Shown piece by piece: positions 6,136-56,362 of a stretch of DNA of 64,000 nucleotides. Numbering within the stretch: the stretch's first letter is position 1; each line of letters starts with the position of its first letter. The notes beneath the pieces are model-generated. The model did not search any database and was not told the DNA's origin. It saw nothing but the letters and a program-made list of their open reading frames with translations. The position numbers and the translations under genes were made by a program. This DNA is from Antedon mediterranea (Eukaryota > Echinodermata > Crinoidea > Comatulida > Antedonidae), in the NCBI RefSeq assembly GCF_964355755.1, contig NC_092671.1:8505001-8569000 (forward strand). The letters are read 5' to 3'.

Positions 6136-6964
6136 GGGCCTGTTTCTGCTGCAACTGCTCAAAATACGGTATAAAAATACGGTATAAAATACGGTATTTT
6201 TTATACCGTATTTTTTAGTACCCCGTTTCTGCTAACAATACTTCTTGGGTGGTCGTGTTAAATTTCATCTTTTTTACCCAAATTGCCATTCATTTATTTG
6301 ATCGATAATTAAAAGTCGCAATAAAGGAAGTTTTACGTCTCACTTTCAACAGCCTAGCCCTAGTGATAGAGATGTTGTGAGAGCACAGAAAACATCGTAA
6401 TGGGGACAATTAATTCGTTCCCTCCCCGAGTTATTGTATTTTGCAATGTTGTACTGCTTTCGCAGGCTCTTCAGCTTTGAGTTTACTTGCTTTGGAGACA
6501 AGTTTATTCCATACTCCTGCTTTATTTTTTTAGAAATGTCTTTATAAATGTGGTTGTCCCTTTTATTACCTTTTAGTTGGTCAGACATTTTAGCTTCCCC
6601 ACACACATTTATTTAGTAAAACTGTGACGTATTCGCTCCACATTTTCGCCGAATATATCTATAGGCCTACATGTGTGTAAAGCAGCTAACAGCGACAGAA
6701 AATAAAAACACGAATGGTGACCTTTTGTCATGGAAAAAAAAAATACGGTATTTTTTATTGGCAGCAGAAACGGGTACAAAAAATACGGTATAAATTTGTA
6801 AATACCGTATTTTATCCACAAATTTTGTGGGGAAAATACGGTATACAAAATACGGTATATTTTTTATGAGCGCAGTTTCTGCTGCCAAAAATATACCGTA
6901 TATATACGGTATTCAAAAAATACCGTATAATATACGGTATTTAGTTGGCAGCAGAAACAGGGCC
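6136..6964 (-). mobile_element. Harbinger-like non-autonomous DNA transposon
   Basis: The element is bounded by inverted repeats GGGCCTGTTTCTGCTGC (left) and GGCCCTGTTTCTGCTGC (reverse complement of the right end), one mismatch in 17. It is flanked on both sides by ATA, consistent with a 3-bp target duplication. Subterminal DNA on both sides is filled with direct and inverted copies of ATACGGTAT, likely transposase or Myb-protein binding sites. Inside is a minus-strand Myb/SANT-like ORF. A short duplication plus a Myb/SANT accessory gene is the known arrangement of PIF/Harbinger elements, and no transposase remains. The superfamily call is inference; the element boundaries are seen directly. 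Confidence 0.7.
6346..6643 (-). pseudogene. Myb/SANT-like ORF of the Harbinger-like element, frameshifted
   Basis: An ATG at 6643 opens a frame beginning MWSEYVTVLL, the start of a Myb/SANT-like (trihelix, Myb_DNA-bind_4 type) domain. The frame breaks near 6610 and resumes in another frame containing HIYKDISKKIKQEYG and then VNSKLKSLRKQYNIAK, ending at a stop at 6346. The order W-x-E-x(3)-LL, then a VY/IY-x-x-I helix, then K-L-K-x-L-R-x-x-Y matches the domain family. In Harbinger transposons such a protein helps import and position the transposase. The frameshift suggests this copy is dead. The same domain family makes up the seven-domain gene at 29.9-35.9 kb. Confidence 0.65.
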
Positions 6965-24211: not shown

Positions 24212-25790
24212 TTACAGACCACACATTGTCATCTTACATATATCACATTTGAAAATCTTTATTCCGTTGTGTTCCACTTTCATGTGATCTTCACAAGTCT
24301 TTAAGGGTTTACCGTGAAAACTACGCATGTGTCGTTGAAAAGTTTCTTCAGTCAAACAATACTTATTTCTACACATAGAACAACGTATTTTTGTTCCTTT
24401 TTTAGCTGCAACTTTGCCCTTGCGATTTCTCCCGTCCGTTCTTTCTTTAACTGGTACTGCAAGTTTATTCTTGTGGCGTATCATAATATGATTATCTAAC
24501 TTGAATTTGTTTTCGAAATTCCTTCTGCACGCAGGCCAATCACATTGAAATGGCTTCGTTTCGTCATGCACGAGTTTCATGTGTCTTTTCAGTTTTTCTG
24601 CATTACTTAAGACTTTCTGGCAAACATTGCACTCCACTTCTTTGTGAACAGAGTTCATGTGCTTTTTAAAAATGACTCTATTCAGAAAGACTTCTTCACA
24701 TAGTGAACAAATTAACTCGTTTTTTTCCGGCACTGCATCTCTGTGTGTTTTCATATGGATATCTAACAGTGATTTATTTTCGAAAATGTCATCGCATCTA
24801 TAACATCTCAGCTTATGCTTATAATCTTTAGGTGTCGTATCTATGTGCATGCGTGTCATATGCGTTTTAAGACATCCAGCACTTAGACAAGTTTTACCAC
24901 AAATGTCACAAGTTTTAGGATCTTTGCGAAATTTATAGCCCCTTCTTTTCCCCTTTGCAGATTGAGAATGAGTGACAAGATGATGATCTAGATCTGATAA
25001 CATTCGAAATGAATGTCCACATTTTTTACAGTCGAAAGGCAAATTGTCCATTTTATGAACATCATTCTGATGACATTTTACCTGAAACTCTGTTTTGAAT
25101 AACTTTTTGCACACGACGCACTCAAAAGAAATTCCTGCATCTTTATTGGCATGCATTTCCAAGTGGTATTTATAGAGAACGGGCTGATAGAAAACCGAAA
25201 CAGGCTTACATATTGTACAGGTTAATATCCGTTTCGGGTGATACTTTATAATATGATCATGCAGTTCTATAGAATTTGTAAATCCAGCAGAAGTACAAAA
25301 ACGACAAGGTTTAAAAGAAAGTTTAGTTTTAATACTTTGGCAAGTATGACCAATCAATGAATTCTCGGTGGCAAACGTTTTCCGACATTTTTCGCAATTG
25401 AACAAGGAAGGTCTCCTTCCCGTGTCAGCGTCATGCCCAACACTATCACTATCAACATAACTTTTAGAGGTACTAGGGAGATGCTCATTACATATTTTTG
25501 CTTTGTAACTTTTCTGTATAGCGTCTTTAGCTTGGCGTGACTTTTTTTTTTTTCTAGTCAATCCTAGAGGTTGAATCATTTTTCTTTGATTCTTTTCAAC
25601 CAACCTACCATCATCACGAACATCATAGGTAACTACATTTGCATTTATGGCGCAATCAGGTTCAACTACGTGTTTCACCATTCGACTGCGGTTACATATG
25701 GCAACATGCTTTTTGTATTTCTTTCTATTCAGCCATTCACCACCACAGGATGCACAATTGAACGTGTAGTCTGCCTTTTCAACGTCATCC
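24212..25790 (-). CDS. C2H2 zinc-finger protein C, last coding exon (5' part missing)
   Basis: A long minus-strand frame starts at a good acceptor (TATTTTCTAG|GG at 25790, phase 2) and ends with TAA at 24212, giving about 526 residues. It carries roughly a dozen C2H2 fingers. The first is an atypical CASCGGEWLNRKKYKKH finger, followed by units such as FECVVCKKLF, FDCKKCGHSF, KTCDICGKT, LRCYRCDDIF and VECNVCQKV. Most linkers lack the classical TGEKP. It is therefore a poly-finger nuclear protein, probably DNA- or RNA-binding. The last finger stops at CDICKMTMCGL before its histidines, so the C-terminus looks truncated. The fragment at 27.8 kb still has a complete finger there. The first exon was not found; in paralogue B it is a short acidic exon joined in the same phase. 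Function is unknown. Confidence 0.85.
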
Positions 25791-26277
25791 CTAGAAAATA
25801 TCAAATACAACGAGTAAAATGATTGATACACAAGCCACACCCGATATCTTTGGTTAGTTAATGAAAATTGAGTTAAACCCCATTACAAATGACTCCAAGA
25901 ACCTTGGTAGATTTAGACTGTTTTACGGTTAAATTGCCAATTTGAAGAGAGACATTTATCAGCCTTTGCATATAGTGACGGTACGCCACAATAAAAAATT
26001 CAGCTGTCATCATTAAGATATAACATGTTACTGGACATCCATTGCCTCACTTTGATGATTTGTGAGGATGGCTAACTATTTGCTTGGTTCAATATGTGCG
26101 CACACTTGCAATCAATAGTATACGTGTTGCAGCACCACTCAACGAATTGGATAGACTTACAACACATAATTTGAGATGGTTTGTAACAGCGTTACAAAAC
26201 TTCTGAATAACAAATTCAATAAATACAACTGAGACAGAAAGTAAATATTTTACATTACTGTACTTATATATAATTAA
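25791..26277. other. Intron or intergenic DNA, nothing recognised
   Basis: AT-rich DNA upstream (minus-strand sense) of zinc-finger exon C. No upstream exon could be supported. Confidence 0.5.
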
Positions 26278-28496: not shown

Positions 28497-28864
28497 TGTT
28501 AAAGATGTATTGTCCCCCTGAAAAAATAATTCTAACAAAATTTGTTGTTGAATATTCCATTTTAGTGCAACATAATAGTTATCCACTTTGACGAAAAATT
28601 GGATCTAAAAAAAAAATGTATTTACCTGAAAAAAAAATGTAATTTAGAGCAAAATATGATCAAATTGGTTGCCAGCCAATGGATTTTTGGTTGAAATTTA
28701 CCATTTATTTTGTCATTTTATAAGTGAAAACATGATTTTTTTTCATTTAATTTTCTATGGAAGTGATTAACTTTATTAAAACTACAAAATAACATATTCA
28801 AAGTCTGATTTAATTAATCTTTATTTTTCATGTTTTTGGGGGACAATACATCTTTAACATTTCA
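28497..28864. mobile_element. MITE family 3 (AATGTTAAAGATGTATTGTC ends)
   Basis: AATGTTAAAGATGTATTGTC at the left and its complement (GACAATACATCTTTAACATT) at the right form a terminal inverted repeat of about 24 bases continuing into CCCC. A degraded relative is visible near 41508-41555. Confidence 0.8.
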
Positions 28865-28940
28865 TGATTATTTCAAATAAAGCAGTGGATTTTCTGTACA
28901 ACACAAAATCACAAAATAACGGTTTGACGCCCATATAGAG

Positions 28941-29513
28941 TATAATACCCCTTTCACACCAAAACTCCGGAGTGTCTCCGGAGACACCCCGGGGTTTATG
29001 ACCATTCAAAACGTCGAGAAACTCCGGAGATACCCTTTCACACCAACCTAGCAACACCAGGGTTCATAAAATAAAATTGTAAATGTCGCCCTCTAGTTTG
29101 TTTGTTTACATAGCGACGATCGTTAGAATCATTTTAATTAATAATATTTTAAATTTAAAAATTACTTTCAAAGTCTCAGAAGTAATATAATGTTTTATTG
29201 ATACTACATATTATTTTCTAGACCCGCTATATATTTTGTACAAATATTTAAAGTATTTTGAAATAAAACTAAAGCAATGAGTGATCGTGTGAGGATGACC
29301 TTTTGACCCGAAACACTCCGGATTTGATGTTGGTACCTTTCACACCAAAACACCGGGGTGTCCCCGCAGTTCGCTCTCCGGAGAATGTTCAGCTGTTCAA
29401 CCCCGCAGTTTTAAACTCCGGAGTTGCTTGATTTTACCTTTCACACCAAACAGCGGGGCGTCAACTCCGGGGTGTCTCCGGAGTTTTGCTTTTGGTGTGA
29501 AAGGGGTATTATA
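28941..29513. mobile_element. MITE with CCGGAG-rich subterminal repeats
   Basis: The ends TATAATACCCCTTTCACACC and GGTGTGAAAGGGGTATTATA are inverted. CCTTTCACACCAA and CTCCGGAG recur several times in both halves. Similar sequence extends outwards from both ends (AAAATAACGGTTTGA versus TTCAAACCATTATTTT), so the full inverted repeat is longer, from about 28900 to 29555. The superfamily is not determined. Confidence 0.75.
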
Positions 29514-29923
29514 TATATATGGTCTTCAAACCATTATTTTGCGAAATTATATATTTCACAAAATTGTATATTTTACATTGTATACCTATATTATAGACAT
29601 ACAATGCAGATTTTATTATAATGATGATCACACTGAAAATGTTTTAAATATATATCAACAATTAGGGTATAAAATAATGTGTCTCTGCTGGAGGGCCTAC
29701 TCTGGCCAAATTGCATTGTTCAATCTACATCTACTGGAACAATGTGTTATTAATTATATAGTATTAGAATATTGATAATAAGTTTTGCAGTACACAAGGT
29801 AATATTCTTTTTAAAAAGTAAGTACGTACGATCGAACCCAAACTTACCTACTTCCCTTTTTAAAGGAAGTTAGTACTTGTAATATCACAATGTTACTACA
29901 GTAAATTAGAATACATTATTAAA
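29514..29923. other. 3' flank of the Myb/SANT array gene
   Basis: It includes the outer arm of the preceding MITE. A minus-strand AATAAA (29617-29612) lies about 310 bases past the stop codon of the next gene and could be its poly(A) signal. Confidence 0.4.
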
Positions 29924-32900
29924 TCAGCTATTAGTATTTCCATCCTTGTTACTTGTGCACATATTTGGATCAAAGTTTCTTCTTAAAGCTGCTAACATTG
30001 TTTGAAATTCTTTAGATCTCCGCTCCTCGGCAAGCCTTTTATCTTCTAAATCTTGTTTCATAAAATCCAATAAGCCAGTCATATACCTTTCTTCTGCTTT
30101 CTCTAGCCTCTTTTCTTGCCTTCTTTTGCTTGCTGAAGACGTAAATGTTCTAGTATTTCTCCAAGCTATCCCATCCATTTTTCTAGTCAAAATTAGAAAT
30201 GACTTTTCTGACAAAAGAGTTTCTTTCTCTCTTTTTTCATCTAAAATAAATGAAAATAAATACAGTTTAATTAAGCAGAATGTTAATAATACTAATTTCA
30301 AAAGTATTTTGAATAATTTCAAAAGTAGTTTTAATCAAGTGCAATTGTAAACAAATATTTAAGAAAAAATTAATTAACCTTTGTTATCTTGAAATTGCTG
30401 CTTAGACCTTTCTAGGAGACTTCTAAGAACAATAGATTCTTTCTCACCCTCTCTTGATACATTTTGTTTGTTACCAGGTTTGGTGTTGTTATGTCCAAGT
30501 TGCTGCAACAATAACGGTTGATCTTTGCTGCCATGTTGAAAGTTTTCAAGTTTGTTTTCTGGTTGTAAGTTTAGAAACTGCTGAATGTCTTGTTTCTGTA
30601 AACTGAAATGTCCTTCCTCGTTTTCATCTACATTAAATTGCTGGCAAAACATATGTTGCTGATCTTTCTCTTGTATTTTCCCATGTTGCTGTATGTTGAC
30701 AGATTTTTGTTTATTTTTTTGAAAATCTATTAAAAAACAGAAACAAAATATCATACAAATAATTAGATGTTCATAAGCTATATATTTCAACTAAATAAAT
30801 ACTTTTGAGATGGCAAAGTTTATAAATAACATAATTCAACAGCAAGTATTGGTAACATGAACAATAAAGGTTTTTTAAACATACCCTCATCTTTAAAAGA
30901 ACTACTGACATTTTCCTCTAATGAGTTGTCTAGCGAAGAATTTAATAGTTCCTTCATTTTATAGTAAAATGGAAATGTTGCCAAGACGTCTGTTTCTGAC
31001 GGTGGACCAGTATCATTAAAAACCTTGTATGCTCTCTTCAGATCTTTTATTTTACGCTGAATCTGAATCCAATTTCTATAAAAAGGACCGCATTCTGCCA
31101 ACCGTCTTGCCATTTCAACAAATGTACCCTTCTTAGTTTTATGCGAGTCTAATACACTTTTGATTTCAGGTTGAGCCCAAATGTCTAAAAGATGGTAGAC
31201 TTCTATATCTGCCCAATTGAATGCTCTTCTTCTATTTAAAGTTTGATCTTGCTTAGTTTCCATTTGGTTTCTATTCATCTCTTCAGCTTCATTTTTATTT
31301 TCATTGACCCAATTTTGCTGAATGTTTCCATGTTCTCTCATATGTTGCCACTTATTGTCATTTTTCTCCTCTTCTTTGCTATTAGGTTGCATGGTGGTAT
31401 GTTGGTTTCTGTTATCAAGTGATTTACTACACATAATCTGCTCTTCAATATCATCAAACTCCTTTATTTCATCAAAAACTTCTCCATCGTTAGGATATTG
31501 AGAACTCACTTCATCACTGAGTACAAAGGAAAGCTCAAAACCTACTTCTATAAAAAACAAGACATTGTTATACTACAAAAGCATTAATTGCTTACCTCTA
31601 ACCCATAGTTAAATTTTCAAAATTAGAAAATAATTTTTGTTACAAATGCCTGGTTCTGTGAGGTTTTTGGATATATACAAATGGTACAAATACGTCAGGT
31701 GATGAAATAGAAAATATACTTACTATCATCTCCAACTGACTCATCAACATTCTCCGGAAAATATGAAGAGTATGGTTTTATTAAACCTTTCATTTTGTAG
31801 TAAAATGGAAAAGTTCTAAAGATTTCAACTTCCGATGGTGGACCAGCATCATTGAAAACCTTGTACGCTCTTCTTAGATCTTTTATTTTGCGCTGAATCT
31901 GAATCCAATTTCTATCATAAGGACCACAGTCTGCCAACCGTCTAGCAATTTCAACAAAGGTACCTTTCTTTGTTTCATGTGAGTCTATTACCCTTTTGAT
32001 TTCTGGTTCACACCAAATGTTTAAAAGGTGGTTGACTTCTTTTTCTGTCCAAAGAATTCGTTTTTGTTTTGAAGTCTTTGAATCATCTTCTCTCATCTCA
32101 TTACTTTCATCCACAATTTGATCTTCCTGATTTTCTTCTTTATTGTCTGGTTCAGTATTTTCCTGCTGTTTGTCAAGTAGCTGTTTACTATCTAAAAGCT
32201 TTTCATTTTCAAGCTCTTCATTTTCATCAAAAACTTCTTCGTCTCCGCCCTGATAATTTTCTTCATCACTTAAGATGTGAGAGTGCTCTAAACCTGAAAT
32301 CATAATTTAATTGTAGTTTTGTTATGTGGTGGTACACATTTTGTTTTAGATTCCAAAAAAAATTTGGAACACCCTCAATGTTAATACCACAGTCAGAGGT
32401 TGATTACTGCCCTCACCCATCTATTTAGCTTGCCCTTTAAAGACTAATAACTAATAAAAGTATGATGATTTAGTAAATGTTTCAAAAATGTTTAGATTTT
32501 TTTTGTTTTTAAGAACAAAGGTAATTAGCTAGTCAGTTTTAATATTACAAACATGTACAGAACATAAAAAGAAACTTACTATCATCTTCAATGAAAGTAT
32601 CAACATTGTCAGGAACATCTGAAGAGAATTTCATTAAACCTTTCATTTTGTAGTAAAATGGAAACGTTCTAAAGATTTCAACTTCCGATGGTGGACCAGC
32701 TTCACTGAAAACCTTGAACGTTCTTCTTAGATCTTTTATTTTACGCTGAATCTGAATCCAATTTCTATCATAAGGACCACAGTCTGCCAACCGTCTTGCA
32801 ATTTTAACAAATGTACCTTTCTTTGCTTCATTTGATTCTATTACTCTTTTGATATCAGGTTCACACCAAATGTCTAAAAGAAGGTGCACTTCTTTTTCTG

Positions 32901-35900
32901 TCCAATTGACTCTCTTCTGTTTTGAGAGATCTTCTTTCATTTTACTACTTTCAAGTTGGTTAACATCATTCTGGTGTAACTGCGGACTTAACTGTTTACA
33001 ATCTAAAAGGATCACTTCACTATCAATCTCTTCATTTTCATCCAAAATATCATCCTCCTGATATGGATAACTGTCTTCATCACTTAAAGCTGAAATCACA
33101 ATTTAATTTTGATTTATTTATTACAATAATACAACTTATCTACAGTAGTGCTTTCTGTCAAACAAAGCACACAAAAACAATATACTTTACAAATTCCGGA
33201 ACACAACCTACCATCATTCATTGAAGTATTGGCATTGTCTTTTATGCTGTCCGATACATCTGCTAAAGGCTTCTTTATCAACTCTTTCATTTTGAAGTAA
33301 AATGGAAAAACTTTCACAATTTCAGCTTCTGGTCTATCCTGATATAGCTTGTATAATCTCCTCAGGTCTTTTACTTTGTGCTGGATCTGAATCCAGTTTC
33401 TAATATAAGGACCACGATCTCCTAACCTTTTGGCCATTTCAGCCCAAGCCTTTGTTTTGTTTTTATGAGTTGACTCTGTAATGTGTTTTATATCTGGTTC
33501 ACTCCAGACGTCTATAAGGTGATTGATTTCAGTATCTCTCCAATTGATATCTCGTTTTCTTTTATGAGTAGACTCCACTACACTCGAATCAGTCAATAGC
33601 TGCTCTTCAATCTCGCTATTATCAAATGGTTGCTCAATCTCTGGATGCTGATCAAATGTTTCATCTTCATCTTGGCCAAATTCTTCATCACTCACAATAT
33701 CTTCAAAATCTGAAATTATATGGTAAATGTTGCAAATATACAAATATAAATTAACATTAAAAAATTATAAATAAAACAAAAGCTGCAGTTCTGTTTTTAT
33801 TTTTGATTTAAGACATTTAAGAAGATAGTAAATCTGGATAACTAAATCAATAATCATTGGTCAATCATTGGTTACCAAGGCTACTATTGTAAATTAAATA
33901 AAACAATAGTTACACTAAATAAAAATAGATTAAAAAAAAACAATACCTTCTTCTTCTACAGCAGTTCCGGTGTTATCCAGAACATCCGATGATGATTGCT
34001 TAAATAATTCTTGGAGTTTGTAATAAAATGGAAACACCCTCATAATTTCAAATTCTGATTTCGGATTCTCATTACAGAGCCTAAAGGATTGTCTCAAACC
34101 TTTAATTTTAACCTGAACTTGCATCCATGTTCGCTTATGAGGACTGCAAGTCAACCGCTTGGCAATTTCATTCCAGGCCCACTTTTTACTGCTCTTTCGA
34201 TGGGATTCAATTACCCTCCTTATTTTAGGTTCACTCCAAATTTCTATCAGATTATAGGTTTCGGTATCTGACCACCTTGACGCCCTTCTCTTTTTATTTA
34301 AAGATCTTCTTTCAAGTTGGTCCTTATTGGCTAATGGTGCTTCATCTTGACGCTGCGTAACAAAGCTTGCGCTCTCAATGTTTGTGTTTCTTCTCAATCT
34401 ATCAAACTCATTATCTGTATCCGATTGTTGTTCGTCCTCATCGAGGAAACTTTCTTCATCACTTAGAATACAAGAATCTGCGTCAAAAAATATAAAACTA
34501 ATGTAAATATTAAATAACACAGTATTTCATAATATTGCCAAGAACTCATTTTATTTGTGAAGGATAATAAAAGATCAGAGTTTAAAATTACGAGTAATTA
34601 ACAAAACGATATAGAAAATTAAAAACTTACCATCGTCGTCATCATCTTGTACCAGACTCTTGATATTTTCTTCTAATGAGCTGTTACCAAGTACATCCGA
34701 GAGGGACTTCTTCATTAAATTTTGAATTTTGTGATAAAATGGAAATACCTTCAAGACTTCAGTTTCTGAACGTGGACCAGAATAATGACAAATCTTGTAT
34801 GCTGCCCTCAGGTCTTTAACTTTTTGCTTGACTTGCTTCCAGGTCTTATTATGACATCTTGAAGATAACCTTTGTGCAATTTCAGCCCAAACAAATTGTT
34901 TACTAACATTTTTACTTGATTCAGTTATACTCCTTATTTCAGGTTGGCTCCAGATTTCAATGAGGTCATTGATTTCAAAATCTGTCCAGTAGGAAGTCAT
35001 TTTTCTTTTTGAAATTAAGTTAGCATTATCCTCATCAATATTGTCATCAGCTTTACTTAAAAATAAAGCTTGTACTTCTTTTGCAATTATGGCGCTAGTT
35101 TCACACTGATTACCATTTTTGCTTGTATTCTGAACTTCTGTACCGTTATCATCTTCTATTACTTCACATTCTGTACTTTCATCATTATCTTTTTGTTCAG
35201 TAAGTGTTTCTTCTAGAAAAACCAGAAATATTAGCTTCAATAGATGCTCAAACTAATCAAACATATTTCTTTCTTAAGAACAACTAATAATCAGAATAAA
35301 ATTCAACTCCCTGTAATAATCAGAATAAAATTCAACTCCCTGTAATAATCACATCTACTGCACAGTAATATGCCTAACAATACAATATATTCCACTGTTT
35401 CAATATACGTCTTTACTTTGAAATCTGTAATTAACTATAAGGCCAACCCTAAACCAAAATTGTTTTCAGCCTGCAAGTACTAATGTATGTTCATCACTAG
35501 GTTTCAGATTATGTCAGTGTCACTGTCACTACTTCCCTAATGAAGCATACAAATGCCAAATGTCACCTAATACTATAGTTTTTTCCCATTAGGTCAACTT
35601 ACCTAAGTTTTCTTCTAACAAAGCAATTTCTTTGGCTGATGAGTCCACCATCAATTCGTGGATTCTGGTGCTGAATTGGCGATTTATAGTGAAGAAAGGC
35701 CCTCTGTACATTTGTAGTAAGTTCTTGATTTTAGAGCGAATTTCAATTTCAGGTCTCTCAGTGTGTCCAAGCTCAACCAACCTTAAGCGAATTTTGTTCC
35801 AAACATCTTTTGTATTTTTGTTGGATGTTAATTCATTTTTTATTTCAGACTCACTCCAAATATCTATAAGGTGATGAGTTTCATCATCTGACCATGTAGC

Positions 35901-35918
35901 AGCCTCCTTCTTCGCCAT
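29924..35918 (-). CDS. Seven-domain tandem Myb/SANT-like protein, nine exons
   Basis: The exons (minus) are 35918-35603, 35212-34631, 34477-33947, 33709-33212, 33089-32580, 32293-31724, 31547-30885, 30726-30379 and 30240-29924. They give 1,444 residues with every intron in phase 1. Exons 1-7 each encode one Myb/SANT-like (Myb_DNA-bind_4/trihelix type) domain, starting near residues 9, 181, 367, 533, 704, 894 and 1114. The pattern is W-x(3)-E-x(3)-L-I/L-x-I-W, then WIQIQRKIKDLRR, then FPFYYKM. Exons 3-7 add an acidic leader with an LSDEE-type motif. Exon 8 is glutamine-rich. Exon 9 is a charged coiled coil (KRRQEKRLEKAEERY...) like the tails of other Myb/SANT proteins. The start codon has a good context (AACATGGCG). 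The family binds DNA, so a multivalent nuclear DNA-binding protein is inferred; targets are unknown. Domain 1 is the most divergent, and domains 5-7 are nearly alike and therefore youngest. Confidence 0.9.
35280..35350. repeat. Short tandem duplication in intron 1 of the array gene
   Basis: About 30 bases containing AATAATCAGAATAAAATTCA and ACTCCCTGT occur twice in a row. Confidence 0.85.
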
Positions 35919-37038
35919 GTTTGTTAGGCTAGGCCTAGTTTAGAATCAAATTACAGGACGTTCTGTTATTGATCATAGGTAGGTTGTTTGTTTTGTGCCG
36001 ACATGTGTTGTTATAACGCGGTTACTGACGACGCGACGGATTAGGTCAACATTGTCAATTTTTCTAGCTCCAATCAATACAGCTAACAAAAAACCTTTGC
36101 ACTATACACACTTTTAAAAATGAGATAAAATATTATTTATCTTGTGTTTATCTGTTGATATAGTGTTAAAGTGATGCAACATATTGATCTCTAAATACAG
36201 TACTTTTCGTCAATCTAAATTGTGTTATTCAAATGATATACATCAAAATGCAACCTTGGTTTAATTAATTTCACTGAGAGACATGATAAAATAAAAAGTT
36301 GTAGAACGACCAAGTGTCATTCATTTATCACTACTGTACATTACAAGCTACATTTAAGAGTATACAGTACTATTTAAAATCACATTTGTATTATTGGATT
36401 GTTAAAACTTAAAATTTAAAAATATAGTGTACAGTACTTGTACTTGTGTAGTGAGTTTTCAACAGAATTAAAATGATGTCATTTGTTTAAATGTCTACAA
36501 TACAAAGCAAGCCTGTACAGTTTGAACAAGCAGGTAAATGAAAGACAAAGAGTTATTCTGATTTTAGTGACATTCTCATTATAAACCACATTACAATCAT
36601 GAAGTTCCTTCAGACTGAATGAATGGACCCTGAGAAAATTTAATTAGTTTATACATGATTGCACTAATATGAAAAAACAAACAGCTAATAACTATATTTT
36701 TATACTAATACCATTTTTTACATCTGTATAATGTAACAACTTGTAACCATGTTTGCAAAGAGTGAATACAATGTTCATGCCGACGAGAGGCCTGTTCTTT
36801 TCTTCTGAGATGTTGTACTTTGCATGTGTTGCCCTGGAATTATTTTAACTGACCACAGTACACTAATAATTAAATAGCGCCCCCAACTATGGAATGACAA
36901 TACTTTCTCCAGAGATTTCTCAGGGTTTGCGTATGTGTGTATGAAAGTGTGTAATAAATTGAGAGATTAAACAAGTTGTAACAATTAACGCAGATGTGGA
37001 AAGAGTATTAGTAACACTTTATATAAGGAAAATAAATC
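35919..37038. other. Intergenic gap between two minus-strand genes
   Basis: The first 150 bases (35920-36070) are the likely promoter and 5' UTR of the array gene. They are CpG-containing (GTTATAACGCGGTTACTGAC, GACGCGACGGATTAGG). The rest is AT-rich and should contain the 3' UTR, or further small exons, of the upstream gene. None was identified. Confidence 0.45.
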
Positions 37039-39436
37039 TTACTCTGACTGTCTACTGGTTGATGTACTAGGAGTTGAATCACTACAAAAAAAAATAAAAT
37101 AGAATTACTATACACTAAATTAATATGTTCACTACATTAATGGATATAATTACAATCGTAACCATGGCAGTCATATTTTACATAAGATTACGGCAAATAT
37201 AAATATTGATGGGAAACCATGTAATCCGTTATTAAAATTGCAGTGTCTCATAATGTGACTTCAGCTCTTTCCAAACGAGTGTTTCACACAACGCAACATC
37301 AACACTCGTTCTGATTGGTGTGAATAAAAAAACAAAAAACTCTGCAGCTCTATAGTAATCAGTAATTAGGCCCCCTCTAACTAAAACATCATTATGTAGT
37401 TGGTTCATACTGTTATACATCATTTAATTAGCAAGTAAGTTTAAAGCCTAAAATATATTACCTTTCTTTAGTTGTTTTCTGGTTTGAAGTGGTAGTGATA
37501 CTGAAATTAATTAAATAAATAAATTAGCAATATTTGCCTATTAATAGACTGTATGACATGACTCCAACATCTTTTTAATACTTCTGGTTTGATAGCTTTT
37601 GTTGATTCATTCTCTGATGCAATGTATTTCTATATTCACACTTAGATTACAAAAGATTTATAAAATCAAACAGAAATCTTAATATTAGATTCTTGTGTCC
37701 TAAAACTATTTCATGAAACTTACGATTCTTCAGGTGTTTGCTGCGTTTTACACATCTTGGAATAATAACTGAAATAATAATAAATGTATTATTAGAGTGA
37801 TGACTATAGTATCAAGTGAAAGGCATGAGTTCAAGTTTCGGTCTGTGCTATATTCATTGTATCCTTTACTCGAATTGCCTCATTCTAAGAATGGGATGTA
37901 TACATGTTAAAGAACATGATACATTACTCAAAAAGAGTAGATCACTGATGTAGATGCTCTGATCTTGCTAGTTGCTAGTTGTTGTGAGTCCATACTGTAG
38001 AGGGCCTAATCTACATTTCCTCATTTTCCAGATACAGAATCACAGCATATAGGCAACACATATTGGTGAAAATAAAACAAACAAGGCCTTAGCATCCAAC
38101 TTCAAAAGTTGTGAATATTACAGAATTTTATATCAACATATTGATTTTGCAATGCAAAACTTCATACAATATATTACAAAAATTGTACTTTTATTTACAA
38201 ATTTATATAAAATTCTTTTTATAGCTATACTTACGAGTTTAACAGAAATTCTGTTAACTCTTCATGTGTGTTAAAATTTAGATTTTTCCTAACTTTCAGC
38301 CACCTTTTATACTGTTCACCAAACATTGCTTTTGCAGCATCGCCTCGTTTCACATAGTAATAACTATATAGAAAAAAAATATTGATTAAAAATTATTTAA
38401 TAATTAATATAATGCTTTTTACTTGGGGTACTCTAGGACTCTCTCATCTTCTCCTCTTCTTCCATCCGACACTATTGAGTGTGTCATTACAGCTTCTTTT
38501 GCTGTACCCCGAGTATCGCACATTTGTGCTTGTTGGTATAGGACAACGTACAGGTTATAAACAGTGTTAATACTTGCACAGATTTCAAGTCCTTATTCAA
38601 GAAGATTCAAGTTTTACTTGATCCAGTACCATGATCAAGGAGAGCGTTGAGCATGTACAGTATGGTTGTTGGCACCTCCACTTGACTCAAATTCAGAAAT
38701 CAAAATGGCCTATTAGAGAGACAATACAAACCTCCCACGATGGCCTAGGAAACTGGCCATTTAAAAAAATGTAAACATTATAACCCAACCAACTTGGAAC
38801 CTACCAATCTATTAATCCTTCTGCTACTTTTACATCATTGAATTTAAATTCAGACGCAATGTTTTTCCATCTAGGCAGTTGATTACCTATGTTTAATAAT
38901 GGACTAGATCTATTTCTATAGTCCATTTCTTCCTTCTTGTCTTTGTTATTGTCTTTCTTATTTCCTCTTGATTTTTTCCTATACGTGTTAATTTCTGACA
39001 AGATTTTTTTTTTCTTCGTTGCAGTTGCTCCGTCTTGTCCAGTTTTAGAACATCGTTTATTCTTTCTTTTGAGACTTGTAATTTTTTGTGGTTCTTCATT
39101 GTTGACAGTCACAAATTGTCCCCAAGTGTTTTCATCTGTATCGTCTACAGGTTCAGTTTTTATTCGAATAATCTTCCCTTCTATATCAATAAGCGAGTGT
39201 GCTGGATCCTCAATTGCCTCTTCATTACTTTCATTCTCTGACATTGTATTTTCACATTCTTTTTTTATTTCCAACATGTTATTAATTGATATGTTACAAC
39301 CAAGTCCTAGTAGCTGTTGGTGCATCCTGGAAGTATTTGAGTCGCTTTCTGGTTCGACATGTTGGTTATCCATACTGCAAGAAGTCGATTGATATTCTGC
39401 ATAGCTATCATCTTCATTTTCTATTTTTATGTCCAT
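37039..39436 (-). CDS. Unrecognised nuclear protein with two RW...FLL..YY modules, five exons
   Basis: The exons (minus) are 39436-38805, 38363-38235, 37768-37724, 37500-37462 and 37081-37039. They join in frame to 295 residues, with all four introns in phase 2. The N-terminal half is acidic with three SUMO-type motifs (IKIE, IKKE, IKTE), as in transcriptional regulators. A lysine-rich stretch (KRKNKR, TKKKK, KKSRGNKK) follows as a likely nuclear signal. Exon 1 ends with RWKNIASEFKF...VAEGLIDW|CYY. Exon 2 ends with RWLKVRKNLNF...LTEFLLNS|YYS. This RW-x-x-(hydrophobic)...FLL..YY motif is thus duplicated at exon ends. Exons 3-5 are tiny (45, 39, 43 nt) and Ser/Thr-rich. In exon 5 the stop TAA overlaps a strong donor (AGA|GTAAGA), so the gene may continue. 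A splice acceptor at 39462 shows that a 5' UTR exon exists upstream. Confidence 0.7.
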
Positions 39437-40384
39437 CTTACTGGCATTCAGCTACTGTACCCTGAAAGGAAAAAAAACGAGGCCATCAAAAAAGTTTTCT
39501 ATCAGAACAGTTGATCATGGTCCTTAAATTTCCTGGCCTTACAGTATTCACGGTTTGTGAAGACATATTAGCAATATATTATTAGACCTATATTACTATG
39601 AGGAATCTAATTTAAGATCACAAACTATATTTAATGTAAAAATAATACTATATGGTCCTATTGCGATAACTTTTTTCGTCTTTAAATGGTTAAATTAAAA
39701 ATAAGTCGATTCGAATAATTATAGCGGCCCCGCTATAAATCTCAAAATGCATTGCGCCCGGATTGATATTATTTATATCAAGTTTTGTTTTTCTTCTGTA
39801 ATTCACTCACTTTTCGATCGATCACAAGGCCAAAACAAATGGAAGATTCCTAACTTTTCAGCGAAAATACCAGGTTTTCCCCAACTTGTATCACTTTTTA
39901 TCATAATTTACCATAAAAACATACATTTAAGACAAGGAATGACCTGGTTTAATGTTTTTAAAGTAATAATATACAGTACAGTATATGTATTATTTTTACA
40001 AAACGTCACTGGTTGGAGGTACACACCTAATGGGTGACAGTGGCTTAGGCTGCTTTTGTGCTTTCCTGGCAGCTAATGACTATGATTTTATATTTTCTTT
40101 TGCGTTGTGTTTGTTTAATTTGTTGATTTATATTATATATATTATTATTTTGTAAAATGTATCTTTTGCCTGAATAAATAATAATAATAAATTGTAGGGA
40201 AGGTGTATTTATTAAATATATCATGGATCAAACATAATTATACAATTTGTAATTGTAAAATTAACATAGTATTAGTAATGCAACAAGTGCACTATTAATT
40301 TTTCGAATGGAATAATGTATACCACGGAGGGCACGTAATAATTAATATGCAACCACGCCTGGTGTTCCATACTAAAAACATGCA
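39437..40384. other. 5' side of the nuclear-protein gene; LINE tail at 40.03-40.19 kb
   Basis: The minus-strand acceptor TTTCCTTTCAG|GG at 39462 marks an intron before the start codon; its first exon was not located. At about 40030-40190 (+) the text ending TTGCCTGAATAAATAATAAT is a typical non-LTR retrotransposon 3' end. Confidence 0.45.
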
Positions 40385-47329: not shown

Positions 47330-50171
47330 TTAAGTTTTTTTCCCGAGTAATCTAAGGATTCTTTTCTCTTCTGCGCTTACTTGTACTTTCATTACACCAT
47401 TATCCGCCCACCAATCAATGTTATGTTTACTTTTCTTGTGTGTTTTAAGACTGACTTTATGATTAAAAGTTTTTTGGCAAATGTTACATTCATATGGCTT
47501 TTCTCCTGTGTGAATGCGCATATGTTTTGACCGATTACTGGATTGAGAAAACCTTTTCTTACACACAGGACACTCAAACCTTTTTACGGTTGCGTGCGAT
47601 TCCATGTGTACTCCAAGACGTCTCATTGAAAAGGTTTTTCCACATATCTCACATGCATACTTTTTATGAGTCAATATATGTTTACGAAGTTTACTCGGAC
47701 ACAAAAAAGTTCTTTCACACGACTTGCATGAAAATTTCTCTCGCAACTTTTGATTTGCATGCACTTCCATGTGTTTCTGGAATCTTGATGGAGACTGCAA
47801 AACAGCCGAGCACTCCTGACATTTATATGGAAAGTGACCACTAAACTTATCATGTGTGCGTAGTAAATGAATATCAGCTTCAGTTAATGACTTGTATCTT
47901 TTTTCACAATGAGGGCATTTGTATGGTAAATGTTCACCACTATGAATCTGATTCTCATGAAGTTGCAGATCAGCTTCGATGCAGAAAGTTTCCTGACAGG
48001 CTTTGCATTCGTAAGAGACACTGGCTCTTTCATTCTCATGCCTTAATTGATGGCAAGCAAAATCGGTAGCACTTTGCAACTTCTGATTACATTCAGTACA
48101 AATATATTTTTTATTTAATACTATCCGCTTTGTTTTTATAATTTCACCATTTCTGTTTATTCGGGCAAATACACATGTACCACTTGTTACTTGCTTTTCA
48201 ATTTCAGCAGCAATCTCATTTTCTTGAAGTCTTCTAGCAGTTTTTTCGTCAATTTCACTGGCTGAAATTTCAGTACCATCTTGGTTGATTATGTGTTCAT
48301 GGTCATCATTTTCATTTTTATCATTGGGATTGATGGGCAGTGTTTCATCAATTTTTTGAACATCATTTTTGTCAATGGAATCAACTTGATTGTCACCGCC
48401 ACTTTCGCCGTTGCATAGTTCTTTGATGCCATCCTTTTCTTCTACATTATCTACGACACTGTTAGAAAGTGTTTCATTAGCATCAATTTCCTGGAGATCA
48501 AGTTTGCCAGTGGTACTGTCAAGATTTACTTCAATTCCATCCATTTGATTATCATGGTCTTTGTCAGCTTTGCAGTTGTTACCATTCTCTTCACTGTTAG
48601 AGGTAGTTTCATCAACATTAACTTCATGGAGATCAAGTTTGCCAGTGGTACTTTCAAGATTTACTTCAATGCCATCCATTTGATTCGCATTGTCTTTGTC
48701 AGTTTTGCAGTTGTTACCATTCTCTTCACTGTTAGAAGTAGTTCCATCAACATTAACTTCCTGGAGATCAGTTTTGCCAGTGGTACTGTCAAGAGTTACT
48801 TCAATTCCATCCATTTGATTATCATGGTCTTTGTCAGCTTTACAGTTGTTACCATTCTCTTCACTGTTAGAAGTAGTTCCATCAACATTAACTTCCTGGA
48901 GATCAGTTTTGCCAGTGGTACTGTCAAGGTTTACTTCAATGCCATCCATTTGATTATCATGGTCTTTGTCAACTTTGCAGTTGTTACCATTCTCTTCACT
49001 ATTAGAAGGAGTTTCATAAACATCAACTCCCTGGACATCAAGTTTGCCAGCAGTACTGTCAAGATTTAATTCAATGCCATCAATTTGATAATCATGGTCT
49101 CTGTCAGCTTTGCAGTTGTTACCATTCTCTTCACTGTTAGAAGAAGTTTCATCAACATCAACTTCCTGGACATCTGTTTTGCTAGCGGTACTGTCAAGTT
49201 TTACTTCAATGCCATCAATTTGGTTATCCTTGTCAGTTTTGCCGTTGCTACTCTCTTCTTCATTATTTGAAAGTGTTTCAACAACATCAACTTCCTGGAC
49301 AATTGTACTGTGAAATACTTCATCTTTAGAACGATTTTTACCTTTGTTAACTTTATTACATGAATGCTTAATAAGATTTATCAGTACTTTGAATGATTTG
49401 TCACAGCAGTAACAAGCATAATGCTCATTGTACAGCTCAACATCAGATTCAGATTTAATAGTTGAAGACTCGCCAGACTTTTCTGCCGAGAGTTCATTCT
49501 CGCTATCTGAAGACTCTTTAAATTCATAATCACTATCTTTGTGGTTGCATTTTAACCTATGACGTTCCAATTGTGCCATGTTTGTAAATTCTCTACCACA
49601 ATCACAATAATTTACTTCGCTGTCATCATCCATAAATTCTTCATCTATGCTCTCTTCTGTTGCCATATAGGTATAACTTCTTGGTTTAAGTACTCTTTTA
49701 GGTCTAGTAGAACCAGAGTTTGCATTGACAGAACCGGCATTCTTGGAACTGTGCTTTCTTTTAGGATGTTTCACTCGTGTTTTTGAGACCCTTACAGAAG
49801 TACTTAGCTCTTCTCTTCTTGATCTCTTAGAATCTGTGTTAGAACTGCCACTTTTGCTCTCAAGAGAACATGCACGAGAATGGTTATCAATTATTATCTG
49901 TATTCTCTGTAAATAATAAAAGAACTATATTAGATTCTGCCATGTACAGAAGGATTTTGCCATGTACAGAAGGATTTTTCCATTTAGGAAAACTGTGTAG
50001 TAATGGATCCAATAAAAATCGTCCAAAGTCATTAATGTTTTGCTAAAAATAGTGCAACTTTCTTACTGCGGCCATTCGTTTCAATTGTAGATCACTAAGT
50101 ACCATTTTCTTTTCTTTGGTTTGCTTTGGTGTTATCTTCCTTGCTTCTTCTTCGTCCATCTTAGTTTGCAT
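47330..50171 (-). CDS. C2H2 zinc-finger protein A with coding minisatellite
   Basis: Exons 50171-50067 and 49906-47330 (minus), joined in phase 0, give 893 residues from an ATG directly after an acceptor. Residues 1-125 are charged and basic. An unusual CDCGREF...H..KC finger lies near 136 and a CYCCDKSF...H finger near 199. An acidic block of about 300 residues follows, made of tandem 45-residue units (SNSEENGNNC...NQMDGIEV). Eight C2H2 fingers occupy about 636-862, ending with HTGEKPYECNICQKTFNHKV. The end (KKSKHNIDWWA) and finger order match paralogue B. It is probably a nuclear DNA-binding regulator; targets are unknown. The true 5' end may lie further upstream, because the exon pair is duplicated in frame at 50.3-50.7 kb and a promoter-like block lies at 53.1 kb. 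Confidence 0.85.
48440..49290 (-). repeat. 135-bp coding minisatellite in gene A
   Basis: About seven units of 45 codons, the central five nearly identical (EVNVDGTTSNSEENG type) and the outer two diverged. All stay in frame. The plus-strand frames across it are shadows. Confidence 0.92.
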
Positions 50172-53687: not shown

Positions 53688-56362
53688 TCATTCTTTTTTT
53701 ATCTTAGCCGCCCACCAATCAATGTTATGTTTACTTTTCTTGTGTGTTTTTAGACTGACCTTATGATTAAAAGTTTGTTTACAAATATCACATTCATATG
53801 GCTTTTCCCCAGTGTGAATGCGCATATGTTTTCGTTGATTAGACCTCTGCGCAAACCTTTTCTTACATACGTGACACTCATACTTTTTTAACGTTGCATG
53901 TGAGTTCTTATGTATTACAAGTCGACTCTTTGAATAAGTCTTTCCACAGATCTCACACACATATCTTTCATGGGTCAACTGGTGCTGAGCAAGAGCTAAC
54001 TGAGATGGGTAAGATTTTGAACATGTGTCGCAGGAAAAGTTTTTTTCCAATATCTTGTTTACGTGTATATCCATATGATTCTGGAATTGAGGTATATCCC
54101 GAAACAAAGAAGAGCACTCGACGCACTTGTATAAAAATTGTCCACTAAACTTGTCATGTTTGTGTAATAAATGAGTATCAGCTGCAATGCATGTCTTAAA
54201 CTGTTCATCGCAATGTGAACATTTATACGGCAAATGTTTTCCCAAGTGACTATGATTTTCATGAAGTTTCAGATCAGCTTCAATATGAAACTTTTTCTGA
54301 CAGAGTTTGCATTTAAATATCACTCCAGCTTTTTCGTTCTCATGTCTTAATTTATGATAACCAAAATCAGTAGCACCATATATTCGATGGTTACATTCAA
54401 AGCATCTATACATTGATTTTACAACTAACATATTGTATTTTACAATTCTACCACTGCTGTTTACTCGAGCAAATACAGTTGGACGACATACTAAAATAAC
54501 TGAATTTTTATTGTCCTCAATGGTTTTAGCAGACTTTTCGTCTGTTTGATTGGTATCATCTTTTACACTGTTATTAGATGCCTTTTCATTGCCATCATTT
54601 TCATTAGAGCCATCAAGATTTTTAATATCATTTTTGTTGGTGTTAACATGTACTTCATTGCTACCAGTATTAACTTGATTTTCATTTTCTTTGGAAATTG
54701 TTTCATCAGTGCCAGTGGTAGTGTTAAGATGTACCTTGTTGGATGAAGGTTTATCAGTTTCAGGATTTTCTTGGTCTTCATTTACTAGATGGCATGAATG
54801 ATTCATGAGATCACTTTTCTTACAAAAGCTTTGATCACAGCAGAAGCAGCCATATTCATATTGTACTTTGCCAACACTATCTTCTGGATTTTTCAGATCT
54901 GAAGCCTTATTCGACACTTCTGGTTCAGAATCACTTACTTCTTTAGGTTCACCACCACCACGCTCGTCTTTAGGTTCACCACCACGCTCTTCTTTAGGTT
55001 CACTATCACTATCCTCTGGATAATCACAATCTGAGATCTGATCTGGTTCATAATCACTCTCTTCTTTATTGCATCTTAGCCTGTGAGTTTTAAATTCTGC
55101 TAAACTTATTAAAACTTTACCGCAAGCACAATTGTAATATTCTTCTTCGCTTTCTTCATCCATACTCTCATCATCATCTTCTTCACTTTCTCTATACATA
55201 CTCTCATCATCAAATATTTCAGCAATTGTTCCCCTGCTCTCCTTTTCGAAAATCTGTTTCCTTCTTCCCTGTTTGTGATAACTAGGCCTATTACTGTCAT
55301 CATCATCAGAAAAGAAGCTGTGAAAACAAATGACCAACATTTATTTATTCTTCTAAATTTAAAATAAGGTTATTTCACTGACAACATAGAGAAATATAAA
55401 CTTTGTTTTGGAATATTTCTTTTAAACAACGCCGTTGCTAAAGATACGGTACCGTATCCATGCTTTTAAAAACTAAAGATACGGTAATTATAGAGGGCGC
55501 TTCCGTTTGCTAAAAGTACGGTAAAATTGCATTCCTAAAACTCGTACCTAAATATAAAACTCGTTCCTAAATATAAAACTCCTTCCTAAATATTAAACTC
55601 CTTCCTAAATATTAAAAACCTAACCCTCTAAATAAACTAAAAAAAAAAAAAAAAAAAAGACGTCAAGAAGAGTATCGAACCCCCAACCCCTTAAGCCAAA
55701 GCCTCATCACATGCCCACTAGGCTACACAGCTGGCTTGCAGTAAACCAATGCAATAACCTATTTGATTAACATCCACATTACATAGCGCCCTCTATAATT
55801 ACCGTACCTTTAGTTTTTAAAAGTATGGATACGGTACCGTATCTTTAGACATAACGTTTAAACAATCAATACAATACTAGGAACAAAAGTAAGACTCCGC
55901 TAAATAAAGACTGCTACTACACATTAGGACGATAACATAAACAACAATTTTTCTTAAATAAACAAAGGAAATTCGGTAGAAAAATTGTCATTCTATAACT
56001 AGCCTAGCTAGGCCTAGGCCTAGGCCCTTAGGCCTTGCTAGCTCTCTTCTGGCTAGCCTAATAGTATCTAGTAAGGAGGCTAGCTAATAAGCTAGTCTAT
56101 AGTAGGCCTAACTAGGCCTATCTATGCCTAGGCCTAGCTAGGCCTGGTAGCCTAGGCCTACTAGGCCTAGCCTAGGCCTAGGCCTATATTATGATGATGG
56201 TGGTAGTAAATAGCATAATTACGTGGCTGTTAGCTCATCTGGTATCTCTTTTTTTATTTCTGCGCCTTGAAATGTGAACAGGTTTTCACCCATGTCGACA
56301 TCTTCAAATTCCAATATTTCATCTTTTAAATCCTTGTCAACTTTTCGTGCTACGGAAGCCAT
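53688..56362 (-). CDS. C2H2 zinc-finger protein B, two exons
   Basis: Exons 56362-56223 and 55317-53688 (minus, phase 2 junction) give 589 residues. Exon 1 encodes an acidic leader (MASVARKVDKDLKDEILEFE...) that I take as the authentic N-terminus. Exon 2 opens with FFSDDDDSN and a long Asp/Glu tract. A CACGKVLIS...H..RC finger lies near 110-130 and a CFCCDQSF finger near 206. A Ser/Asn/Thr-rich acidic linker follows. Eight fingers occupy about 351-570, ending in HTGEKPYECDICKQTFNHKV and KHNIDWW. The layout and C-terminus match gene A, but the 135-bp repeats are absent, so the repeats expanded in A after duplication. It is probably a nuclear nucleic-acid-binding protein; targets are unknown. 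The 5' intron holds a Mutator-like MITE. Confidence 0.87.
55430..55856. mobile_element. Mutator-like MITE with long inverted repeats
   Basis: It is bracketed by TTTAAACAA at 55421-55429 and 55857-55865, a 9-bp target duplication typical of Mutator-like elements. The inverted repeats (CTAAAGATACGGTACCGTAT continuing to AGAGGGCGCT, about 64 bp) differ at about two positions, and the outermost bases are less conserved. GATACGGTACCGTATC is itself palindromic. The centre holds a tRNA-like sequence. Confidence 0.8.
55641..55733 (-). repeat. tRNA-like pol III unit (SINE head or tRNA pseudogene)
   Basis: The minus strand has an A box (TAGCCTAGTGG, from 55725) and a B box (GGTTCGATACTC, from 55682), 43 bases apart as in tRNAs. 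A run of about 18 T follows, which would terminate pol III. No clean acceptor stem was confirmed, so it is not called a functional tRNA. Confidence 0.55.
55990..56185. repeat. (TAGGCC)n-type degenerate repeat
   Basis: CTAGGCCTAGGCC words recur densely in the 5' intron of gene B. The same word is scattered through the whole window. Confidence 0.85.

Follow-up and report, generated by a model that had tools for sequence, protein, structure and literature searches.

What would a gene with seven Myb/SANT-like domains in tandem encode, and how could such an array have arisen? This question is raised by a locus of the crinoid Antedon mediterranea, within a stretch of 64,000 nucleotides (NC_092671.1, positions 8,505,001 to 8,569,000) that we call the window and from whose first letter positions are counted. 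Nine exons on the minus strand, at 29924-35918, give a joined frame of 1,444 residues: seven carry one domain each, one is rich in glutamine (Q), and the last carries a predicted coiled coil. An earlier note, made from the letters of this DNA, had read it as a single gene for a multivalent DNA binder. With a confidence a little better than even, we propose a host gene derived from the Myb-like ORF1 of a PIF/Harbinger transposon, in which a symmetric exon was serially duplicated to give a multivalent DNA binder joined by a coiled coil.

A single gene model with tandem domains

The joined coding sequence has one terminal stop and no internal stop. All eight introns are GT-AG and in phase 1, with lengths of 122-390 bases, and the ATG of exon 1 stands seven codons downstream of an in-frame stop. 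Since every intron is in phase 1, exons 2-8 are symmetric (1-1). On this sequence-derived model, the proposal of a single gene joined in frame holds, and so does the described order of a Q-rich exon followed by a coiled-coil exon, the latter predicted as a long helix. We treat 29924-35918 as one gene model with tandem domains, which would be transcribed as one mRNA.

At the domain level, a profile hidden Markov model search, the check that the earlier note had proposed, found Myb_DNA-bind_4 (PF13837) in all seven domain exons at 42.1-50.5 bits, above the Pfam gathering cut-off of 27 bits. Modules 2-7 are full, with charges of +6 to +13 and isoelectric points (pI) of 9.59-10.29. Module 1 is neutral, and its match spans positions 3-67 of the 89 in the profile. 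The seven complete modules that had been described are therefore six, and module 1 is partial, lacking the WIQIQ and FPFYYKM segments. The six linkers are acidic (charge -9 to -22), and a charge-hydropathy plot places all of them on its disordered side; from the end of one domain to the start of the next there are 66-123 residues (Table 1).

Other families of similar proteins were looked for in the nine exon frames. No BESS domain was listed at E up to 1, nor was a Myb_DNA-binding repeat of the classical R2R3/R1R2R3 Myb type (the family that we take to be PF00249), nor the SCAN or C2H2 domains that are features of ZSCAN20/29. MADF_DNA_bdg (PF10545) stayed below its cut-off in the window gene, with a best score of 16.6 vs. 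22 bits.

For the fold, a structure model of module 6 built from a seven-sequence input was all helical, with a predicted local distance difference test (pLDDT) value of 83.1 and helices at 11-21, 24-30, 37-49, 57-76, 82-88, and 92-96. Foldseek ranked GT-1, a homeodomain-only protein, and Zeste highest, all with E values of 0.5 or more. A second structural comparison was led by Sap1 (Z 9.6), GT-1 (Z 9.1), and Zeste (Z 8.0), with homeodomains below them. No solved structure was matched significantly in a sequence search with the module alignment (best E 0.064; E 0.065 for GT-1). We regard module 6 as having a predicted trihelix/Myb-like fold. Among modules 4-7, identity is 74% in helix 3 vs. 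56-60% in helices 1, 1b, and 2 (56% in helix 1, 60% in helix 2); in helix 3 of module 1, 30% is shared with the other modules.

The tail encoded by exon 9 is predicted to form helices at 2-30 and 36-88, and most of the longer one has pLDDT values of 83-98 in a single-sequence model. In the best of all registers tried, 58% of its a/d positions are hydrophobic vs. 29% overall. The tail is thus a predicted coiled coil, which would oligomerise.

Besides the domains, exons 3-7 open with a hydrophobic-SDE/SDD segment of the (I/V/A)(L/V)SDE type, also present at the opening of the third exon of a related gene on C9 (2243-2344 of the fetched stretch; this gene is described below). This segment may bind proteins or be phosphorylated. 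A SUMO-interaction motif was considered for it; the segment is too short to call, and we leave this as a lead.

Table 1. Exons of the tandem-domain gene, with positions in the window
Feature	Position	Strand	Observations
Exon 1: start codon and degenerate module 1 (neutral; without the WIQIQ and FPFYYKM segments)	35603-35918	-	PF13837 42.1 bits; pI 6.92
Exon 2: acidic linker and module 2 (domain 34713-35015)	34631-35212	-	PF13837 49.9 bits; phase 1-1; pI 9.70
Exon 3: acidic linker and module 3 (domain 34002-34304)	33947-34477	-	PF13837 46.8 bits; phase 1-1; pI 10.29
Exon 4: acidic linker and module 4 (domain 33276-33566)	33212-33709	-	PF13837 50.5 bits; phase 1-1; pI 9.84
Exon 5: acidic linker and module 5 (domain 32638-32928)	32580-33089	-	PF13837 49.3 bits; shares 69% identity with exon 6
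Exon 6: acidic linker and module 6 (domain 31785-32075)	31724-32293	-	PF13837 47.8 bits; structure model pLDDT 83
Exon 7: acidic linker and module 7 (domain 30943-31239)	30885-31547	-	PF13837 47.3 bits; phase 1-1
Exon 8: Q-rich (19% Q)	30379-30726	-	No Pfam family at E up to 1; weak donor GTTAAT
Exon 9: predicted coiled-coil tail and stop codon	29924-30240	-	Predicted helices; related tails in C9, C8, C6, C10, and C3 genes

Expansion of the modules

A genome-wide scan for PF13837 scored 150 of 409 candidates; module 1 was not among the places listed. Six of the seven modules begin within 3.8 kb on one strand among the matches listed, and the 150 scored places held no other same-strand pair within 10 kb, the next closest pair lying 10.4 kb apart on C6. 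This absence argues that the run is not due to chance. Searches with module 6, module 2, and the C9 domain as queries likewise listed several same-strand neighbours only in the window.

The modules are too divergent to be an assembly artefact. Over whole exons, identity is 69% between exons 5 and 6, 53% between 6 and 7, 48% between 5 and 7, and 29-44% for the other pairs; domain identity to module 6 ranges from 30 to 85%. The similarity of exons 5 and 6 runs across their acceptors into the introns (37 nt, 81%). The ratio of nonsynonymous to synonymous divergence (dN/dS, Nei-Gojobori) of the domains is 0.21-0.49 in the 16 of 21 pairs with unsaturated dS, a coarse estimate, with dS above 1 in 11 of these 16 pairs.

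We built an unrooted tree of 28 domains, the seven modules and 21 other PF13837 loci of this genome picked from the hits. It has a nested pattern: exons 2-7 (95/93), exons 4-7 (96/87), exons 5-7 (97/91), and exons 5 and 6 (99/94). The domain at C9:20.746 Mb groups with the seven modules at 93/94. Modules 5 and 6 would therefore be the youngest pair, if the nesting reflects the order of duplications. Module 1 may be the original domain, with modules 2-7 as the expansion, because both module 1 and the C9 domain open their gene.

An 88-residue Harbinger-type Myb fragment in the window (6349-6612, minus strand) was too short for the tree and was omitted; many matches of the family scan are frames as long as this one and cover the same part of the profile.

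Gene conversion between exons 5 and 6 was suggested by a dS of 0.165 in the domain vs. 0.946 in the linker, and then rejected by codon counts: codons for the same residue were 67 identical and 7 synonymous in the domain, and 32 and 5 outside it (Fisher p 0.53). The first 38 domain codons showed no clear difference from the rest (p 0.097), and runs of third positions were not long in the three pairs (p 0.66, 0.96, and 0.89). Runs over all polymorphic sites gave p 0.065 for exons 5 and 6, 0.010 for 5 and 7, and 0.002 for 6 and 7; we attribute these values to stronger conservation of the domain than of the linker and do not take them as conversion.

Relatives and a PIF/Harbinger origin

The closest relative is the one-domain gene at C9:20.746 Mb, with five exons and all introns in phase 1. 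Its exon order is similar to that of the window gene: domain, two acidic exons, a Q-bearing exon, and a coiled coil. The C9 tail matches the tails at C8:19.431 Mb, C6:14.317 Mb, the window, C10:11.032 Mb (E 0.014), and C3:23.876 Mb (E 0.028). In the 6-8 kb fetched per locus, C8, C6, C10, and C3 each have one domain region and a related coiled coil. The C3 domain region is split into two pieces 4.4 kb apart, and the C8 and C6 loci are 98% identical over 2.4 kb. An open frame of the transposase family DDE_Tnp_4 adjoins C8 (109.5 bits) and C10 (121.9 bits) on the opposite strand. Near C6, at 9.3 kb from the domain there, and near C3 there are transposase matches too, each interrupted by one stop. 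We take these four relatives to be Harbinger ORF1 genes.

In the tree, a branch at 97/97 separates the tandem modules, C9, C8, C6, C9_11984, and C10_11034 from the 16 other loci, most of which are also transposase-linked. Domain and tail together suggest that the window gene is closer to the transposase-linked ORF1 copies with a coiled coil than to other PF13837 loci. It resembles PIF/Harbinger ORF1 in its PF13837 domain and related coiled-coil tail, with C8, C6, and C10 on its side of that branch. However, the four relatives have one domain region and a transposase match nearby, whereas the window gene has seven domains and none listed nearby.

The transposase list holds 149 matches from 150 scored of 217 candidates. 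Of the 21 PF13837 loci sampled outside the window, 13 have a listed match within 10 kb. Among the matches listed, no DDE_Tnp_4 lies within about 10 kb of the window gene (the nearest is 3.55 Mb away), and the nearest to the C9 gene is 1.79 Mb away; since 150 of the 217 candidates were scored, the list may lack a weak match.

A C2H2 zinc-finger-like frame stands beside the C8 Harbinger copy (3707-5551 of the fetched stretch), and most of the 170 DNA matches of the C8 locus hit this part, many of them clustered on C1 near 8.1-8.5 Mb. At C6:23262625-23263326 there is a transposase match with no stops, 41% identical and not beside any listed PF13837 locus; it is a possible domesticated transposase partner.

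Proposed mechanism

We suggest that descent ran from transposon to host. The ancestor would have had one Myb/SANT-like domain, acidic and Q-bearing exons, a coiled coil, and phase-1 introns. Being symmetric (1-1), the exon with linker and domain could be duplicated in tandem without a frame shift, and serial duplication would have produced modules 2-7. The basic domains, set on acidic linkers predicted to be disordered, would each contact one short site, and modules 4-7 would do so through third helices that are much alike and presumably serve in recognition. The coiled coil would join chains. Clustered sites would then be bound by avidity, and the product might form bridges between them. Because the Myb-like protein of zebrafish Harbinger3_DR recognises a 9-bp subterminal motif (PMC9710019), it is probable that the ancestral domain, too, read a short motif.

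A multivalent DNA binder, as the earlier note had it, is the simplest reading because six domains are strongly basic and module 6 has a predicted trihelix/Myb-like fold. The note did not recognise that module 1 is degenerate, or that the gene probably belongs to a PIF/Harbinger ORF1 lineage. A more specific version seems to us doubtful but worth stating: an end-binding protein may have been domesticated into an array reader, whose six competent modules and tail would sense the number of sites and could be tuned by in-frame exon skipping.

Several observations weigh against the proposed gene model, origin, and function. The donors of exon 3 (GTATTG) and exon 8 (GTTAAT) depart from the usual sequence and look weak. 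Six of the seven domains also fall slightly past the disorder line of the charge-hydropathy plot, so that domains and linkers differ in degree. For module 6, Foldseek gave nothing under E 0.001 and listed homeodomains too, and Z values of 8-10 are, according to the tool, common for helical models, the scores being moderate. The loop preceding helix 3 is equally alike among modules 4-7 (74%), and over modules 2-7 helix 3 does not stand out (56%). In a short stretch of 18 codons that follows the domain, dN/dS between exons 5 and 6 is 1.40. The window tail and the C9 tail match weakly in the genome search (E 0.002; 3.6e-4 in the reverse direction). At C8 and C10, no clear terminal inverted repeats were seen in the fetched stretches, which possibly do not include both ends. 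In the tree, module 1 joins modules 2-7 weakly (81/41), and topologies with module 1 beside C9, or C9 beside modules 2-7, are not rejected (approximately unbiased test, p-AU 0.359 and 0.366). Being unrooted, the tree does not distinguish descent from transposon to host from the capture of a host gene by a transposon.

Alternative explanations

The symmetry of the internal exons would also suit a splicing cassette, in which the gene mainly yields proteins with varying numbers and combinations of modules instead of one seven-domain protein. Any subset of exons 2-8 could be skipped in frame, since all are 1-1, and the donors vary in sequence. However, the short introns fit constitutive splicing equally, and we consider this explanation unlikely.

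The gene might instead encode a repressor of transposons, or a co-opted end-binder, whose modules bind clustered subterminal motifs of Harbinger elements or of miniature inverted-repeat transposable elements (MITEs) and silence or regulate these elements. In favour are its place in the Harbinger ORF1 lineage, the subterminal motif read by the zebrafish Harbinger3_DR protein, and the many Harbinger-type matches in this genome. The domains are, however, far from the transposon copies: listed matches outside the window and C9 are at most 37% identical; the sole exception, at 43%, spans about 55 residues and contains two stops. We find this role quite improbable.

We give a similarly low probability to domains whose main role is in protein contacts, for which some MADF/SANT domains are precedents; few of the seven, or none, would then bind DNA. 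The MADF domains of Mzfp1 are assigned mainly to protein contacts (PMC11229372), the contact between YlAaf1 and YlAaf2 is reported to be mediated by SANT domains (PMC12482196), and module 1 is neutral. Modules 2-7, however, have pI values of 9.6-10.3, a property that has been tied to DNA binding for MADF domains (PMC5982830).

Several separate single-domain genes, or a decayed array, are very improbable: internal ATG codons in exons 2-7 would by sequence alone permit separate starts, but the start codon of exon 1 follows an in-frame stop, all phases match without an internal stop, one Q-rich and one coiled-coil exon serve all modules, and the domains are under constraint.

Comparison with known systems

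Drosophila Zeste, which has a single trihelix-like domain, is the working model for the proposed multivalent binder, with valency moved into the chain itself. The likeness lies in the DNA-binding fold, as far as the model of module 6 predicts it. Zeste is described as binding multiple sites cooperatively as a homo-oligomer formed through C-terminal zippers (PMC3927085). Its valency comes from oligomerisation, whereas the window gene has seven domains in one chain.

Plant GT-2 trihelix factors have two trihelix domains, ZSCAN proteins combine a SCAN domain with zinc fingers, and Drosophila Hmr may have four MADF domains. Tandem SANT-like domains also occur elsewhere: PMC3706607 mentions a "second SANT domain" in a mammalian ZSCAN20-like protein, and yeast Aaf1 is reported with two tandem SANT domains (PMC12482196). 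GT-2, the ZSCAN20-like protein, and Aaf1 have two domains each, vs. seven in the window gene. Mzfp1 and the Drosophila paralogues with two MADF domains are alike in joining tandem Myb/SANT-like domains in one chromatin protein, but Mzfp1 is described with two domains plus C2H2 fingers, and these domains are MADF, not PF13837 (PMC11229372). Hmr is named as having multiple MADF domains (PMC5982830). Phytophthora has multi-repeat Myb proteins, with up to five repeats in P. sojae; several Myb-type repeats are shared with the window gene, but the available part of that source calls them Myb DNA-binding domains and does not link them to PF13837 (PMC3386981).

The domestication of Harbinger Myb-like proteins is already known (PMC9710019), and MADF genes are reported as likely PIF-derived (PMC10027918). 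Two-domain proteins and exon duplication in general are not new either. Our literature search, partial and not wholly aimed at domain number, found no protein in the accessible texts with more than two MADF/SANT-like domains counted. As far as this search goes, seven PF13837 domains in one gene through duplication of a symmetric exon are new; similar predicted animal proteins may exist unnoticed.

Tandem DNA-binding arrays in animals are mostly zinc fingers. The window gene would represent a different route to such an array, with a transposon-derived helical domain multiplied on a symmetric exon. A 2021 paper places class 1-1 modules mainly in extracellular proteins and finds no evidence for exon shuffling in transcription-factor modules (PMC8001218). 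If exon duplication is counted, the window gene would be an exception to this view; the array reader, if true, would make that counter-example a DNA-binding one. The gene also makes it possible to test a physical question, by how much the avidity of a single natural chain rises as it gains weak modules, for which the one-domain C9 gene would serve as a control.

Neighbouring features

Upstream of the gene, at 37000-39451 on the minus strand, a 216-residue frame contains several IKxE-like segments and is followed by short possible exons; it has no Pfam match at E up to 0.1. A small MITE-like element with perfect 24-nt terminal inverted repeats and inner inverted repeats lies a short way downstream of the gene, at 28941-29513; the inverted-repeat search that found it covered, within the window, 28800-29700 only. 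The gene is flanked by C2H2 zinc-finger frames of 550-864 residues, all on the minus strand, at 24215-25882, 47333-49924, and 53691-55340.

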